In this document: piece by piece, positions 2,943 to 24,824 of the stretch
Layout of the letters: each line of letters begins with the position of its first letter
Position numbering within the stretch: the stretch's first letter is position 1
Source: a virus
DNA length: 32,072 bases
Virus record (IMG/VR): IMGVR_UViG_3300031715_000021
Span: 1 to 32,072 of that record
Reading direction: 5' to 3' (one strand)
Notes under the pieces: model-generated
Databases searched by the model: none
What the model saw: the letters and a program-made list of their open reading frames with translations, nothing else
Told to the model about the DNA's origin: nothing
Position numbers and translations under genes: made by a program

Positions 2943-2947
2943 CCAGC

Positions 2948-3586
2948 ATGCCCGCCAAAACCACTACCGCCGCGATTTACGCGCGCGTTTCCACTAAGGA
3001 CAAAGGCCAGGACGTCGAGAACCAGCTCGCGCAGCTTCGCAAGTACGCCGAGGCGCAGAGCTGGGGCGTGCGCGAATTCATCGACCACGAAACGGGCAAG
3101 CACGCGGATCGCGCCGCGTTCAAGGCGCTGTTCGAAGCCGCGTCGCGCCGCGAAGTCAACGTCGTGCTGGTCTGGGCGCTGGATCGCTTCACGCGCGAAG
3201 GCGTGGCCGAGACCTTCGTGCACATCAAGACGCTGCTCGGCTATGGCGCGCAGTTCGAGAGTCTCACGGAGCCGCACTTTCGCACCACGGGCCCGGCGGG
3301 CGAACTCATGATCGCCATCGCGGCGTGGATCGCGAAGCAGGAGCGCCTGCGCATCAGCGAGCGCACGAAAGCGGGGCTCGCCATCGCGAAAGCGAAGGGC
3401 GTGCAGCTCGGGCGGCGCTGGAAAGTCTTCCCGCGCTGGCGTGCCGTCGAGATGCGAAAAGAGGGCATCAGTTGGCGCGCGATCGCCAGGGAACTGGGCA
3501 TCGGACAGAGCACCATTCGCAGCGCTCTTAACCGGAAAGACTCGGGTGTGCATCAAATAGGCGGCAAAAACGGGCGAAAACGGTAG
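2948..3586 (+). CDS. Small serine recombinase (resolvase/invertase family)
   Basis: 212 aa from the ATG at 2948. An ATG at 2921 would add nine residues but lies inside the putative promoter. YARVST (11-16) carries the nucleophile Ser15, LDRFTR (79-84) holds conserved catalytic-core residues, and the long E-helix (about 128-155) and Arg-rich region follow. A C-terminal helix-turn-helix at about 163-195 (SWRAIARELGIGQSTIRSAL) binds DNA. This is a full-length resolvase/invertase type, not a large serine integrase. In this genome it could resolve multimers, invert a segment or act as an integrase. The two 18-bp sites just downstream are candidate targets or operators. Confidence 0.9.
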   Translation: MPAKTTTAAIYARVSTKDKGQDVENQLAQLRKYAEAQSWGVREFIDHETGKHADRAAFKALFEAASRREVNVVLVWALDRFTREGVAETFVHIKTLLGYGAQFESLTEPHFRTTGPAGELMIAIAAWIAKQERLRISERTKAGLAIAKAKGVQLGRRWKVFPRWRAVEMRKEGISWRAIARELGIGQSTIRSALNRKDSGVHQIGGKNGRKR

Positions 3587-4141: not shown

Positions 4142-4272
4142 CGCGCGGCCGCGGCCGCCTGCGCGAGCACGGCGTTCAGCGTCGCGGCGCGATGGAAGGC
4201 CTCGGCCAGGACGCCCGCACCGGCGAAATACAGGATAACGGCAGCCAGCGAAAGCGAAAGCAGGATACGCAT
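4138..4272 (-). CDS. Small single-pass membrane protein (44 aa)
   Basis: ATG at 4272, stop at 4138. The sequence is an N-terminal hydrophobic helix (MRILLSLSLAAVILYFAGAG) and a short Ala-rich tail, read either as a membrane anchor or as an uncleaved signal. It is last in the minus-strand cluster and converges on the secreted protein with stop codons overlapping. No family can be assigned at this length. Confidence 0.4.
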   Translation of the reverse strand: MRILLSLSLAAVILYFAGAGVLAEAFHRAATLNAVLAQAAAAAR

Positions 4273-4319
4273 GCGACCAGTGTGCGGCGGATCGGGGCGC
4301 GGCTCAATACTGCAGTTGG

Positions 4320-4673
4320 TTACGCGGCGTCATCCGGAGGCCGCAGCCGGAACATCGTCACGCCGTCCTCGCGCTTGATCTCGAGGTTTTGCTCGATCCA
4401 TGCGCGGATCCGGGCGTCGATGCCGGTTGGATCGGCGGCGATGCGGGCGTCAATGTCAGCGCGAAGATCGTCGGCCAGACTCATCGGCTTATCGTTAGCC
4501 TCATCCAGACGGAAGCCTTGTAGTTGTATTCGGCGACGCCCGCCTTTGTCTTTGCGGATGCGGAAGTTAAAACGGTGGATCAGCCCGCAATCACAGCACT
4601 GCATCAGATAACCGCGCCGTACAGGCGTGACCCACTCGCCCGCGGCGACTGGCCTCAGCCGTATCGATGCCAC
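4320..4673 (-). CDS. Conserved phage protein with Cys pair
   Basis: 117 aa from a GTG at 4673. The N-terminal half has the motif WVTPVRRGYLMQCCDCGLIH, which I associate with an uncharacterised family common in tailed phages; the closely spaced Cys residues suggest metal binding. The C-terminal half is helical (IDARIRAWIEQNLEI). The start lies one base after the stop of the 34-aa gene (TAAC-GTG), so the two are probably translated together. Confidence 0.7.
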   Translation of the reverse strand: MASIRLRPVAAGEWVTPVRRGYLMQCCDCGLIHRFNFRIRKDKGGRRRIQLQGFRLDEANDKPMSLADDLRADIDARIAADPTGIDARIRAWIEQNLEIKREDGVTMFRLRPPDDAA

Positions 4674-4674
4674 G

Positions 4675-4779
4675 TTAGCGCCTGAGCGGCCGGTTCAGCA
4701 CACGCAGCCGCAGGCGCTCCTTGGCTTCGCGGCGTTGCCGCCGTTTACGCTCGCGCCGCGCTGCCTTGCCCTGCGCCAT
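4675..4779 (-). CDS. Arg-rich micropeptide (34 aa), possible RNA-binding
   Basis: ATG at 4779, TAA at 4675-4677, immediately before the next GTG. The sequence is dominated by Arg/Lys (MAQGKAARRERKRRQRREAK), 17 of 34 residues being basic. The N-terminal helix resembles the arginine-rich boxB-binding motif of lambdoid N proteins in composition and pattern. The length is far below N proteins and no boxB was identified, so RNA binding is only a suggestion. Confidence 0.4.
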   Translation of the reverse strand: MAQGKAARRERKRRQRREAKERLRLRVLNRPLRR

Positions 4780-4791
4780 CGCGGTGGCGGG

Positions 4792-5100
4792 TTAATAGAC
4801 GCCGCCGTGCGTGATCGCGGCGTTCGCGAGCATGCCTGCCATGCGCAGATGATGGATCGCCAGAGTGCGATCCCCGGACGGGGGAATTTGTTCGATCAGC
4901 GTCGTGCAGGCCGACACGAGCCCGGCGCGCACGGCTGAGCCGCGATTGATCTGCGTCGCGTTCCACTCGGGATGACCGGCGGCGAAGGCGTTCAGCAGCG
5001 CTGGCTGCTCGCTCCCCTGAACCTTGGTCGCGGTATGAAAATTGATCCCCTTACCCGTGGTGCGGGCGGGTTTGCTGCGGGCGCGTGCAGGTGTGCTCAT
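4792..5100 (-). CDS. Acb2/Tad1 hairpin-like protein, candidate anti-CBASS sponge
   Basis: 102 aa from the ATG at 5100, preferred to 5136 because the promoter -10 lies 7 bases upstream. Residues 50-72 form one helix (NRGSAVRAGLVSACTTLIEQ). The turn and second helix at 73-96 (PPSGDRTLAIHHLRMAGM, then LANAAI) match the pattern P-x-S-R-E-x-S-LA-x-T-x-L-E-x-A-x-M-W-A-N-A-A-I that I recall for phage Acb2/Tad1 hairpin proteins. Family members bind cyclic di- and trinucleotides and block CBASS signalling. The usual Trp after Met is Leu here, and the N-terminal 50 residues are an extra basic extension. The match is by recollection, not by search. Confidence 0.55.
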   Translation of the reverse strand: MSTPARARSKPARTTGKGINFHTATKVQGSEQPALLNAFAAGHPEWNATQINRGSAVRAGLVSACTTLIEQIPPSGDRTLAIHHLRMAGMLANAAITHGGVY

Positions 5101-5107
5101 GCAGGCG

Positions 5108-5136
5108 AGTATGTCGCACCGCGAGCGCAAGCGCAA
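5108..5136 (-). promoter_or_regulatory. Promoter of the Acb2-like gene (leaderless)
   Basis: On the minus strand: TTGCGC (5136-5131), 17-base spacer, CATACT (5113-5108), then 7 bases to the ATG at 5100. The 13-mer TGCGACATACTCG is shared with the promoter of the next upstream gene. Confidence 0.6.
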
Positions 5137-5142
5137 GGTTTT

Positions 5143-5373
5143 TCAGCCGGCGTGCGAACCGGCGCCGTGCGTCTCGGGCTCGGTCAACTGCGCCACGCGG
5201 TTCGACTCCATGGTGGCCCAGCCGCTGAGCTGGCGGAAGTAATTCTGCTGATCGAGGAGCGCGGGCAGGCTGTTGACCTCCTCCGTGATCTTGTGCTGCG
5301 TGCTCACCAGACCATTGCGAACGGCGACTGGTGTAGCGCGGGCGAAGGTGTACGGCGTGGCGTTGTACTTCAT
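5143..5373 (-). CDS. Small helical-hairpin protein, possible relative of the Acb2-like gene
   Basis: 76 aa from the ATG at 5373, set by its promoter. Two helices are predicted: residues 15-36 (VAVRNGLVSTQHKITEEV) and about 43-62 (NYFRQLSGWATMESNRVAQL), joined by LPALLDQQ. AVR-x-GLVS matches the start of the first hairpin helix in the neighbouring Acb2-like protein, and the two promoters are nearly identical. It lacks the signature DR-x-LA and MxxANAAI, so if related it has diverged. Confidence 0.5.
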   Translation of the reverse strand: MKYNATPYTFARATPVAVRNGLVSTQHKITEEVNSLPALLDQQNYFRQLSGWATMESNRVAQLTEPETHGAGSHAG

Positions 5374-5484
5374 GGGGCCGAGTATGTCGCATGCGGCGCG
5401 AGTTGGCAAGCGCCTTCGGCGTGGCGTTGTACTTCATGGGGCCGAGTATGTCGCATGCGGCGCGAGTTGGCAAGCGCCTTCGGC
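5353..5484. repeat. 64-bp tandem duplication of promoter and gene start
   Basis: The sequence at 5353-5420 recurs without a mismatch at 5417-5484, a period of 64 bases with slightly more than two copies. Each unit holds the promoter, ATG and first seven codons of the 76-aa gene. Because 64 is not a multiple of three, the upstream ATG (5437) opens a different frame that is not expected to be a real protein. The duplication looks recent. Confidence 0.95.
5381..5409 (-). promoter_or_regulatory. Promoter of the 76-aa gene (leaderless), duplicated
   Basis: On the minus strand: TTGCCA (5409-5404), 17-base spacer, CATACT (5386-5381), then 7 bases to the ATG at 5373. A second identical promoter lies 64 bp upstream (TTGCCA 5473-5468, CATACT 5450-5445). 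Confidence 0.65.
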
Positions 5485-5513
5485 TTTCGCAGGGGGGGAT
5501 CGGGTGCGAGTCG

Positions 5514-5585
5514 GTCAGTCAGTCGGCTCATTTTTGCGACGCGCGTTCCGTTCCCCCTGGAACCCCCTCTGACAGACTGACTGAC
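5514..5585. repeat. Inverted 11-bp GTCA repeats
   Basis: GTCAGTCAGTC at 5514-5524 and GACTGACTGAC at 5575-5585 are perfect reverse complements separated by 50 bases. Each is internally a tandem GTCA/GACT repeat, so several registers of pairing are possible. Confidence 0.75.
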
Positions 5586-5632
5586 TCTGTTGTCTGTCTG
5601 GTTTGAAGTCAATAAGGATGCGCGCGCCGAAA

Positions 5633-5712
5633 AGTTCCCGATACGTGCGGAACTGAGTTCCCGATGCGTCCGGAACTCGCGCCGCGTTCGAGTTCCGCAG
5701 GCGTCGGGAATT
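5633..5712. repeat. Three 22-bp dyad sites (iterons or operators)
   Basis: Sites at 5633-5654 and 5656-5677 each have perfect arms AGTTCC and GGAACT around a 10-base centre and start 23 bp apart. A third at 5691-5712 is the same site in reverse orientation with one arm changed to GGAATT. Conserved bases extend into CCGA and GCGG. They lie 85-165 bp upstream of the next gene. Confidence 0.75.
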
Positions 5713-5760
5713 CCTTTCGCCGCGTGTTCGCCAGCCAGATCAACGGTGCAAAAAAAACGC

Positions 5761-5789
5761 TGGACACGGGCCGCGATCCTGGGTACCGT
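5761..5789 (+). promoter_or_regulatory. Weak candidate promoter for the 68-aa gene
   Basis: TGGACA (5761-5766), 17-base spacer, TACCGT (5784-5789), then 6 bases to the ATG at 5796. The spacing matches the leaderless promoters elsewhere, but the -10 is poor. Confidence 0.3.
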
Positions 5790-5795
5790 ACATGC

Positions 5796-6002
5796 ATGAA
5801 TCCGACTCGGCCGAAGCGCAAAAGCAAACCAGGACCAGCCAAAGGCACTGTCAGCCCCACGCGTGGCCTGAGCGTGCCGAATCGCGCGCGCGGCGGATAT
5901 GCCCGCGCCGCCAGTCTCACCGCCGAGCGGCTGAGCGAGATCGGGCGTGCCGCACGCGCGGCGCGCACAAGGCAGACGCAGCGGGCGAGAAAAGCCGCAT
6001 GA
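5796..6002 (+). CDS. Small basic protein with NUMOD3-like motif (68 aa)
   Basis: The start at the ATG at 5796 is chosen because the longer frame from 5664 runs through the dyad repeats. The first half is basic and Pro-rich (RPKRKSKPGPAKG). The second half has GGYARAASLTAERLSEIGRA followed by an Arg-rich helix, the same pattern as the 54-aa protein at 68-232. It lies just downstream of the three 22-bp dyads, so it is a candidate binder of them. Function unproven. Confidence 0.6.
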   Translation: MNPTRPKRKSKPGPAKGTVSPTRGLSVPNRARGGYARAASLTAERLSEIGRAARAARTRQTQRARKAA

Positions 6003-10071: not shown

Positions 10072-10644
10072 ATGCCATCGAAACCTACGCGCATCGATGC
10101 CGGCGGCCATCGCGAGCGCTTTCTTGCCGGGCGCGACGAGCTGGTCGCCGGCCATCTCGAGCTGGTCCGCCAGATCGCGCGGCGGCTGCATGCCGCGCTG
10201 CCGCCCTGCTTCGAACTGGACGATCTGATCGCCGAAGGGGAGCGCGCGCTGGTCGCCGCCGCCACCCGGTATAAGCCCGAGGCGCATGGCGGCGCGCCGT
10301 TCAGCGCGTTTGCGCGTAAGGCGATTCGCGGCGCGATGCTCGACTCGGTCGGCGACAAACAGTGGCGCGAGAACATGCACGTGCAACTGGACGCGGAAGC
10401 GCTGCCCAACCGGCCCGTACCCGAGCCCGTGGCGGGTATCGATCATGACCGCCTGATGGAGCGCGTCGGGGAAGCCATCGCACGCCTGCCGCCGCGCAAA
10501 GCCGAGGTGCTGCGGCTGTACTATGCCGCCGACGAGCCGGGGCTGCGCGTCGTGGCGCGACGGCTGAATACGTCCTACGGCACGGTCTGGCAACTGCACA
10601 GCGAGGCGGTAGCGGAGTTGCGGACCATACTCAAAGCTGGGTGA
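10072..10644 (+). CDS. Phage sigma-28-like (FliA/WhiG-type) sigma factor
   Basis: 190 aa. Region 2 at about 24-95: LVRQIARRLH, then FELDDLIAEGERALVAAATRY, then FSAFARKAIRGAMLDSVGD, with the core -10 binding helix. Region 4 at 127-187: RLPPRKAEVLRLYYAADE and a helix-turn-helix ending TVWQLHSEAVAELR. The QLHSEA signature is typical of FliA and its relatives. The linker (96-126) is too short for a full region 3, and the protein is shorter than FliA (about 240 aa). It directs host RNA polymerase to its own promoters; four candidate promoters with sigma-28 geometry occur in this window. The next gene follows within 5 bases. Confidence 0.85.
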   Translation: MPSKPTRIDAGGHRERFLAGRDELVAGHLELVRQIARRLHAALPPCFELDDLIAEGERALVAAATRYKPEAHGGAPFSAFARKAIRGAMLDSVGDKQWRENMHVQLDAEALPNRPVPEPVAGIDHDRLMERVGEAIARLPPRKAEVLRLYYAADEPGLRVVARRLNTSYGTVWQLHSEAVAELRTILKAG

Positions 10645-13846: not shown

Positions 13847-14452
13847 GTGCCGGAACGCGTGACGCTGGCGAATGTGACTCCATCAGGCGGTAGCACGTCC
13901 GATCCCTTCAGTCGGCGCGATGCGCTGCCCCCGGACGCGCTCGCCTGGTACGCGCTCCGGACCCGGCATCAGCGCGAGTTTCGCGTCCGCGAGCAGCTCG
14001 CGGATTTCCAGCTTGAGCATTTTTTGCCGGTGTATGCCGCGACGGTGCGCTGGTCCGATCGCGAGAAGCAGATCGAGCGCCTGTTCTTTCCCGGTTACAT
14101 CTTTGCGCGCTGCCCTGAGCGCCTGGCGCGCCGTGCGCCGCTGTTCCTTGATTTCGTGATGGAAACGCTGAGCCTCGACGGTGCTCCTCTGGTGATCCCG
14201 CCCGAGCAGATCGACGCGCTGAAACGCGCCATCGCATCGCGCCTCGCCGTCGAATGCTGCCCGTATGTGGCAGGTTCGATGGTGCGCGTTAAATCGGGAC
14301 CGCTGGCGGGCATCACGGGCGTGGTTCAGCGCATCGCGGGCGAAACGCGCATCACCATCGGCATCGAATTTCTGCGCCGCGCGATCTCGGTGCAGATCGA
14401 CGCGGCGGATCTGGAAGCGGCTGATCTCGAACCGGCGGACCATAAGGCATGA
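13847..14452 (+). CDS. NusG/RfaH-like (UpxY-type) transcription antiterminator
   Basis: 201 aa from a GTG at 13847. Residues 33-115 are a NusG N-terminal domain: AWYALRTRHQREFRVREQL, then RLFFPGYIFARCP, the usual F-P-G-Y-x-F element that binds RNA polymerase. A KOW-like segment follows at about 143-178 (SMVRVKSGPLAGITGVVQRI). Such proteins travel with RNA polymerase and suppress termination or pausing over long operons. Encoded here behind promoter C and ahead of the terminase, head and tail genes, it could allow late transcription through many kilobases. The N-terminal 30 residues are an extra Ser/Pro-rich extension. Confidence 0.8.
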   Translation: MPERVTLANVTPSGGSTSDPFSRRDALPPDALAWYALRTRHQREFRVREQLADFQLEHFLPVYAATVRWSDREKQIERLFFPGYIFARCPERLARRAPLFLDFVMETLSLDGAPLVIPPEQIDALKRAIASRLAVECCPYVAGSMVRVKSGPLAGITGVVQRIAGETRITIGIEFLRRAISVQIDAADLEAADLEPADHKA

Positions 14453-22891: not shown

Positions 22892-24130
22892 GTGCCTAAT
22901 AACGTTCTACTCACCCCCCAGATCCTCGTCCGGTTGATCCTGATGAATCTGGGTGGGTACCTCGCCGTGGCTCGCAATATGACGAAGCAGTACGCTTCGG
23001 AATTCGCGAAACCCGGCGCCAAAGTCGGCGACACCGTGAGCGTGCGCAAGCCGCAGCGCTTCGTGCCCTCCGTCGGCCTGCTCTATCAGCCGCAGGCTTT
23101 GAGCAACGTCAAAACCACGATCACGGTCAACGACGTGACCGGCGTTCACTACGAATGGGACTCGGTGGAAAAAACCCTGTCTCTGCAGGACGCCAACGAA
23201 ATGTACGGCAAGCCGGCCGCGATCGCGATGGCGCACAACGTCAACGCGCGCGCCGCGCAGTTCGCCGCGCAGAACACTTTCAACGCGGTCGGCACGCCCG
23301 GCACCACGCCGACGCTGCTCGATACGTACCTCAGCGCGGGCGACAAAATCGTCGAGCTTGGCTTGCCTCCGGAAGAGCTGCTGACCTGCATCGTGAATCG
23401 CAAAATGAGCAGCCAGTTCGTCGTGGGGCAGAAAACGCTCTTCAACCCGGCGGGCGCCATCGGCGGCACGATCAAAGACGGCGGCATCGCCGAAGGCGTC
23501 GATAACCTGCTCGGTTACAAGTGGGTTCGCGACCAGACCATCTATACCCAGCTCGGCGGCGCACAGGGCGGAACGCCCCAGGTGAGCGGCGCGGGCCAGG
23601 GAACCTCGAACGGCAACAACGACACCATGTCGTTGAACGTCAAAAACCTCTCCTCGACCGTCTGGAACGTCGGGGACCGCTTCACTATTGCGGGCATCTA
23701 CAGCGTGCATCCGCAGACTCGCCAGTCTACCGGCGACCTGCAGCAGTTCGTTGTGCTCGCGCCGTTCAGCGCAGCCTCCACCGGCAGCGTCACGATCGCC
23801 CCCGGCATCACGCCGAGCGGGCAGTATCAGAACGTCACCGCGTCGCCCGCCGACGCCACCGCCATCACTTTGCTCGGTGCGGCCTCGTTCAGCAGCCCGC
23901 AGGGCCTGCTGATGCATAAGAACTCTTATGCCTTCGTCTCGATCCCGCTCGACACGCCCAAAGGACCCGGCGTCATCTCTTCGCACGAAGAGGAAGATCC
24001 GGAAACCGGCCTGCGTGCGTCTTTCGTGAGCTTCTTCGACGGCGTGCACCGCGTCGAAGGCAATCGCCTGGACATGCTGGACGGCTTTGGCGTGCTCTAT
24101 CGCGAAATGTGTTGTGTTATTGCGTCATGA
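22892..24130 (+). CDS. Major capsid protein (P22 gp5-like coat)
   Basis: 412 aa from a GTG (GACCAGTGCC context) just after AAAGGGTGACC. The N-terminus NNVLLTPQILVRLILMNLGG and the KPGAKVGDTVSVRKPQRFVP segment match P22-type coat proteins (430 aa in P22), which adopt the HK97 fold with an inserted I-domain. The I-domain region is probably the glycine/asparagine-rich stretch around 215-300. The stop overlaps the converging endonuclease gene by 14 bases. Confidence 0.9.
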   Translation: MPNNVLLTPQILVRLILMNLGGYLAVARNMTKQYASEFAKPGAKVGDTVSVRKPQRFVPSVGLLYQPQALSNVKTTITVNDVTGVHYEWDSVEKTLSLQDANEMYGKPAAIAMAHNVNARAAQFAAQNTFNAVGTPGTTPTLLDTYLSAGDKIVELGLPPEELLTCIVNRKMSSQFVVGQKTLFNPAGAIGGTIKDGGIAEGVDNLLGYKWVRDQTIYTQLGGAQGGTPQVSGAGQGTSNGNNDTMSLNVKNLSSTVWNVGDRFTIAGIYSVHPQTRQSTGDLQQFVVLAPFSAASTGSVTIAPGITPSGQYQNVTASPADATAITLLGAASFSSPQGLLMHKNSYAFVSIPLDTPKGPGVISSHEEEDPETGLRASFVSFFDGVHRVEGNRLDMLDGFGVLYREMCCVIAS

Positions 24131-24824
24131 TTTGAGCTAGGCGAGAGCGCCGCGCCGCCTGACCTTTTTTCATGGCGGCGCTGTGCTCCTCAAAAGTCCG
24201 CTTAGAAATCATGTTCCTGAATGCCTGGTCCCTCGCGCTGCGCTGCTCGGGCGTTAGGCCTGCCTGCAAGGCAAGCCCCGCCCGGCGCGTTGCCTCTTTG
24301 CGTCTCGCTGGTGAGTAATTCGCTTTCGCTAACTGCGCGCTTTTCCGGCGCTGTTCGCCAGTCCGGACCGCATTCACCTTGTCGATGTTCGCCCGGCGCT
24401 GTTCGGGTGTAAGGCTCATCCTGCTTTGTCGTGCCGCTTCACTCCGCGCTTCGGGAGTGCGGCTTGCCATTGCCTTTATGGCCTTCGCTCGGCGCAGTTC
24501 GGGCGTCATCATGCCGGGCGGCGGCCCATCGCCGCCGTCGGTTCCATTTACAAGATCGCAGCCCTGGGCGCGATAGAACGCGATCCAGTGACGTTCGGCG
24601 TCCTTGAACGCGGTCCCTGTCCCTGAGTCGATGACATCGATCAGAGGATCGAGACCGATGCTCACTAATGACAGGACCCATTGGTGGGCGCGCGTGCGGT
24701 GAAGAGCGACCGAATAGTAAATGTGGGCATACAGGCGCGCTTCGGGCGTTCGCGAAGTCCAGCCGACGTACTTCACGGCGCGGGTGCGCGGATTCTTCAG
24801 GACGTAGATAACCCAATCAGGCAA
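24117..24824 (-). CDS. GIY-YIG homing endonuclease with NUMOD3-like repeats
   Basis: 235 aa from a TTG at 24824; no ATG fits, so the exact start is uncertain. N-terminal GIY-YIG-like nuclease (VIYVLKNPRTRAVKYVGWTS, where the VIYVL and KYVGWT parts correspond to GIY and YVG). From about 105, repeats such as TPEARSEAARQSRMSLTPEQ match NUMOD3-type DNA-binding modules. It is free-standing, on the opposite strand, and overlaps the coat gene end, so it probably recognises a site in or near the coat gene of uninfected relatives and spreads by gene conversion. Confidence 0.85.
   Translation of the reverse strand: MPDWVIYVLKNPRTRAVKYVGWTSRTPEARLYAHIYYSVALHRTRAHQWVLSLVSIGLDPLIDVIDSGTGTAFKDAERHWIAFYRAQGCDLVNGTDGGDGPPPGMMTPELRRAKAIKAMASRTPEARSEAARQSRMSLTPEQRRANIDKVNAVRTGEQRRKSAQLAKANYSPARRKEATRRAGLALQAGLTPEQRSARDQAFRNMISKRTFEEHSAAMKKGQAARRSRLAQIMTQ

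Follow-up and report, generated by a model that had tools for sequence, protein, structure and literature searches.

The protein examined here is a distant relative of the Acb2 and Tad1 proteins, with which other phages sequester signal molecules of bacterial immunity. The Acb2 protomer has a short helix in addition to two long ones that run antiparallel (PMC10419184), and Tad1 possesses an N-terminal beta-sheet domain (reviewed in PMC12043709). Two groups of verified Acb2 proteins, T4 Vs.4 (PDB 7uq2) and the PaMx33/41-type p26 (PDB 8h2j/8ixz), are found by the Pfam model PF24729 (Acb2_Tad1_hairpin) at 71 and 66 bits, respectively. A further subfamily of PF24729, phrog_1454 or FTYH-MTAN, includes gp101 of Tunturiibacter phage Tunturi_1, QCW07669.1 of Lactococcus phage CHPC971 and the IMG/VR loci L005-L040; relatives in this subfamily, to which our protein is closest, score 52-96 bits. 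In all three groups the PF24729 match starts one residue before a Tyr (Y8 in T4, Y11 in the PaMx type, the Tyr of FTYH in the subfamily). The superfamily is widespread among phages; a single scan gave 413 pattern matches and confirmed 392 relatives. We also observed that several Paenibacillus phage hairpin proteins matching PF24729 carry the GenBank label 'phosphomannomutase', which recurs from record to record and appears to be a misannotation (for example L131 392-595, that is KT361656.1 43447-43650, with a PF24729 score of 95.7 bits).

The window, by which we mean the whole 32,072-nucleotide stretch of IMG/VR virus record IMGVR_UViG_3300031715_000021, is a phage contig whose plus strand carries late genes, a terminase gene among them. 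A short minus-strand cluster of 76-aa, 102-aa, 34-aa and 117-aa ORFs lies within positions 5480 to 4320 (Table 1), adjoined by a serine recombinase gene (2945-3586, plus strand; PF00239, 121 bits). The 102-aa ORF has an intact frame from its ATG at 5100 to a stop that ends at 4792; an earlier note on this DNA had placed the gene correctly, leaving the strand, which is minus, unstated, and had given residues 73-96 (PPSGDRTLAIHHLRMAGMLANAAI, composed of PPSGDRTLAIHHLRMAGM at residues 73-90 and LANAAI at 91-96) exactly as they are. Elsewhere in the window we identified a phage-encoded sigma-70-type factor (10072-10644, plus strand; PF04542 and PF04545 above cutoff) and a NusG-domain protein (13847-14452, plus strand; PF02357, 44.8 bits); with the latter, the phage has, ahead of its late genes, a factor for transcription elongation or antitermination, which it carries together with the sigma factor. 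Inside the structural region, a 235-aa ORF (24117-24824, minus strand) contains VIYVLKNPRTRAVKYVGWT, which looks like a GIY-YIG homing endonuclease, and had no Pfam match at E <= 0.001.

Table 1. Features of the minus-strand cluster and of the 102-aa protein (positions in the window).
Feature	Position	Strand	Evidence
102-aa Acb2/Tad1-hairpin homologue	4792..5100	-	ORF, PF24729, phrog_1454, leave-one-out family HMM, 36 IMG/VR relatives
N-terminal extension, residues 1-30, basic (6 K/R), predicted unstructured	5011..5100	-	AlphaFold2, alignment
Short N-terminal helix (predicted), residues 31-38	4987..5010	-	AlphaFold2 model
A41-G42 at the family Tyr-His position (T4 Acb2 Y8, PaMx33-type Y11)	4975..4980	-	Family columns 14, 15
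First long hairpin helix (predicted), residues 48-71	4888..4959	-	AlphaFold2, pLDDT 95-98
R58, at the K26 position of verified Acb2	4927..4929	-	Arg in 84/84 relatives; kept
Second long helix (predicted) with DRTLAIHHLRMAGMLANAAI signature, residues 76-97	4810..4875	-	AlphaFold2; PF24729 residues 66-97
Promoter-like element running into the start codon (GCGACATACT, 7 nt, ATG)	5098..5135	-	Consensus resemblance only
76-aa ORF, upstream neighbour	5143..5373	-	Same promoter-like element as the 102-aa gene
Exact 64-bp tandem duplication, two copies, with promoter-like element and first codons of the 76-aa ORF	5353..5480	-
117-aa protein with YLMQCCDCGLIH motif, downstream neighbour	4320..4673	-	IMG/VR relatives

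When the 102-aa protein was compared with PF24729, residues 66-97 were matched at 21.6 bits (E 2.5e-4), so that the HMM search suggested by the earlier note gave a significant match which, for this protein alone, falls below the curated gathering score of 27 bits. The phrog_1454 profile matched it at E 3.8e-5. An HMM built from 24 phage relatives, with the query excluded, scored it at 45 bits (E 2.8e-13, computed among the 558 ORFs of the window, the next best of which reached 5.2 bits), while the best of 2000 shuffles of its sequence reached 6.9 bits. The resemblance to the hairpin family is thus far beyond chance. A weak tblastn lead from the protein pointed to Tunturiibacter and Lactococcus phage proteins that are themselves PF24729 members at 45-55 bits, and an alignment seeded with these recovered 36 IMG/VR relatives; the IMG/VR search seeded with the 102-aa protein alone found no relative, and alignment-based seeds were required. 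That search yielded no close relative by which purifying selection on this sequence could be demonstrated. PF24729 is matched by all 25 aligned sequences, the query included (at E <= 0.001 for the 24 relatives, with 45-96 bits for those scored individually), and no second Pfam family recurs among them. PADLOC and NCBIfam searches with the protein matched nothing. Judged by its sequence, the 102-aa protein is a divergent homologue within a known and very widespread phage hairpin superfamily.

The likeness is closest to the phrog_1454 subfamily, whose members have the same hairpin, can be aligned with the 102-aa protein from the N-terminal helix to the C-terminus at 25-36% identity and have in common with it a pattern of F, P, R, P, D, R, M and ANA. 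It differs from them in having no Tyr-His, in a two-residue insertion before helix 1, in its basic 30-residue extension and in helix 2, where M-L stands in place of E..V-M-T. With the verified Acb2 proteins it shares the Pfam hairpin model, the predicted order of elements and a basic residue at the K26 position, but it has neither a Tyr at the Y8/Y11 position nor an Arg four residues past the helix-2 Met, and the direct profile similarity is weak. The helix-2 signature also aligns with that of Tad1 (PDB 7uav, 8kbb-8kbh), whose N-terminal beta-sheet domain is not predicted here.

Since direct profile-profile comparison is weak, the link from the 102-aa protein to verified Acb2 is transitive. 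When the subfamily was compared by hhalign with the two verified Acb2 groups only, the probability was 7% (P 0.005), too weak to decide, and we therefore took bridging routes through Pfam and through a broader profile, A7. A direct phmmer search of the protein against the PDB gave no match. The subfamily profile (A2) found Acb2 homolog 43 (PDB 9ptq) as its best match among all PDB sequences at a non-significant E of 0.067. Profile A7, in which Paenibacillus, Gordonia and Mycobacterium phage members were added to the subfamily and the 102-aa protein makes up one of the 14 rows, found the same structure at E 6.7e-5, followed by seven Tad1 and Vs.4 chains (E 0.7-1.1) that are individually insignificant and all in the same C-terminal register. 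Among solved structures the family profile thus has its best match in Acb2 homolog 43, which aligns end to end; like the 102-aa protein, this homolog has a residue other than Tyr at the pocket column, in its case Thr, whereas the two proteins differ at residues elsewhere.

The AlphaFold2 model of the 102-aa protein, made with a 24-sequence alignment, contains a confident two-helix hairpin (pLDDT block means 95-98) and no predicted beta strands, and its layout of a short N-terminal helix followed by a hairpin, with no further domain, is that of the Acb2 protomer. The same three helices are predicted for a canonical relative, L017 (mean pLDDT 96), with the N-terminal helix at residues 7-16. In a Foldseek search of viral models (BFVD), most of the named best matches were Acb2/Tad1-hairpin proteins (probability about 1, E 0.01 and weaker). 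No Acb2 chain appeared among the best 50 matches listed when the model was compared with the PDB, and L017, used as a control, reached T4 Vs.4 with no more than a weak match (rank 3, E 2.4); we consider this comparison uninformative, because small helical hairpins hold little fold information. The Acb2/Tad1 hairpin homology proposed in the earlier note is therefore upheld by sequence profiles, by the transitive link to solved structures and by the confident predicted hairpin, and of the outcomes that it had named as speaking against the proposal, those that concern sequence and fold (the lack of a profile match and a fold without the two-helix hairpin) were not observed. Its description of a 50-residue basic N-terminal extension has to be shortened: an extension is present (pLDDT block means 79/62/51) and it is about 30 residues long, since residues 34-72 align with the family N-terminal helix and first hairpin helix. 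It is missing in most relatives and in this sense not typical, as had been said, although some are extended too, such as 107-aa Lactococcus phage proteins.

The most conspicuous departure from the family lies at columns 14 and 15, where 82 of the 84 sampled relatives have Tyr and 82 of the 84 have His. At these positions the 102-aa protein has Ala41 and Gly42. The pocket Tyr is invariant in both verified Acb2 groups. K26 (PaMx33-type), a basic position 15 residues after the Tyr, is likewise invariant in verified Acb2 proteins and is presumably a basic pocket residue, as its invariance would suggest; R58 takes its place here. Altogether, the protein departs from the family at 10 of 22 near-invariant positions (in family numbering Tyr14 to Ala41, His15 to Gly42, Y25G, A36C, A47G, R54H, E58M, V60G, T62L and A68T), the most of any sequence compared (the next have 9 and 7), while F12, R29, P44, D48, R57, M61 and A63-N64-A65 are kept. 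Across 85 distinct relatives, the protein retains F, P, R (R58), P, D, A, R, M, A-N-A and I. The relatives were collected with patterns that covered the C-terminal motif, so that conserved members are over-represented in the sample and the C-terminal conservation is inflated. A few residues on from A41, the loop preceding helix 1 contains an insertion of two residues (EW). The earlier note had remarked that the usual Trp is Leu; Trp is usual in only part of the superfamily, and in the closest subfamily the residue is Thr in 79 of 85 sequences and Trp in 2 of 85.

What, then, might such a protein do? As in its characterised homologues, the hairpin would mediate assembly into an oligomer, hexameric in Acb2, whose protomers form pockets between them, and the protein would sequester a nucleotide-derived immune signal and keep the host defence effector inactive. 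We lean, if by a little, towards a sponge for nucleotide signals whose ligand preference has been altered. Most likely, to go by the residues, cyclic-dinucleotide binding in the usual mode is absent and the ligand preference has changed, because Tyr-His is replaced by Ala-Gly with R58 kept and the helix-2 face is altered (R54H, E58M, V60G and T62L). Possible ligands would be a trinucleotide, an ADPR-type signal, or a dinucleotide gripped by another aromatic such as W46. The earlier note had likewise suggested a divergent member with a different ligand preference, and this is the part of it that fits best, for the stronger reason that Tyr and His are lost rather than for the Trp to Leu change. 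Its heading of an Acb2-type anti-CBASS protein finds no support in its present form, given the loss of the cyclic-dinucleotide Tyr and the many family-invariant positions that are changed. A narrower version holds that the protein has specifically lost cyclic-dinucleotide binding and kept another pocket, thus neutralising trinucleotide or ADPR-type signals while avoiding guards; guard systems such as Panoptes penalise a phage when its Acb2 takes up cyclic dinucleotides made as decoys (PMC12657218). We regard this version as very improbable.

A rather unlikely but serious alternative is that the fold and the oligomer survive in a hairpin homologue that no longer binds nucleotides and has been repurposed or is decaying. 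The extent of the change, which is the highest among the sequences compared and affects both Tyr-His and the charged face of helix 2, would agree with this, as would the failure of the IMG/VR search to give close relatives. However, the frame is intact and the near-invariant residues listed above as kept remain, which points to selective rather than uniform loss; moreover, the sample against which the changes were counted is skewed to conserved members, and the pocket column holds Thr in the solved Acb2 homolog 43, so that loss of the Tyr does not exclude a protein from the superfamily. We find it more doubtful still that the protein is a functional Acb2 in which W46 or H43, near the two-residue insertion, replaces the stacking of the Tyr on cyclic dinucleotides. 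The position of the EW insertion and the retention of R58 would allow it, but the Tyr is conserved in both verified groups and in nearly all relatives, and in T4 Acb2 the Y8A substitution disrupts the binding of cyclic dinucleotides and leaves the protein inactive in the Panoptes assay (PMC12657218). Finally, although the opposite strand of this GC-rich DNA is full of long overlapping ORFs and the ATG has no Shine-Dalgarno ahead of it, a spurious ORF with a chance resemblance is hardly conceivable and essentially refuted by homology, in view of the leave-one-out match that no shuffle approached, the compact minus-strand cluster and the conservation of the 117-aa neighbour.

The earlier note had credited the gene with its own promoter, and there is indeed a promoter-like element, with the GCGACATACT core at 5117-5108, 7 nt ahead of the ATG; the match is to a consensus only, and its CATACT -10-like hexamer, 7 nt ahead of the ATG, is common to the upstream 76-aa gene. 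The promoter scan returned two identical TTGCCA-17-CATACT sites (5473-5445 and 5409-5381), which result from the exact duplication of a 64-bp segment. No obvious Shine-Dalgarno was seen ahead of the 102-aa and 76-aa genes, while several other genes of the window have a purine-rich RBS, and the arrangement GCGACATACT-7nt-ATG before two consecutive genes of this kind suggests leaderless transcripts. No Rfam elements were found in 4200-6000. The 76-aa ORF and the 102-aa protein have AVRxGLVS in common, and we rejected the idea that they are paralogues, since the similarity is not significant against shuffles (the local score was reached by 176 of 3000 and the semi-global score by 944 of 3000). 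The 117-aa protein has no family match apart from IMG/VR relatives that share YLMQCCDCGLIH, a motif found in at least 42 loci with residues 13-45 as the common part. A conserved pairing of this neighbour with the hairpin gene was also rejected, as a hairpin homologue occurs in none of the 42 loci.

Canonical anti-CBASS Acb2 would be too strong a name for the 102-aa protein, and it should be annotated as an 'Acb2/Tad1-hairpin-like protein' and not as 'Acb2'. If the protein binds nothing, it is a caution against labelling every PF24729-like hairpin as anti-CBASS, as is now happening in phage annotation. If it does bind a signal, this would show that loss of the pocket Tyr can shift the preference of the hairpin scaffold away from cyclic dinucleotides, and the 102-aa protein would be a natural separation-of-function variant.
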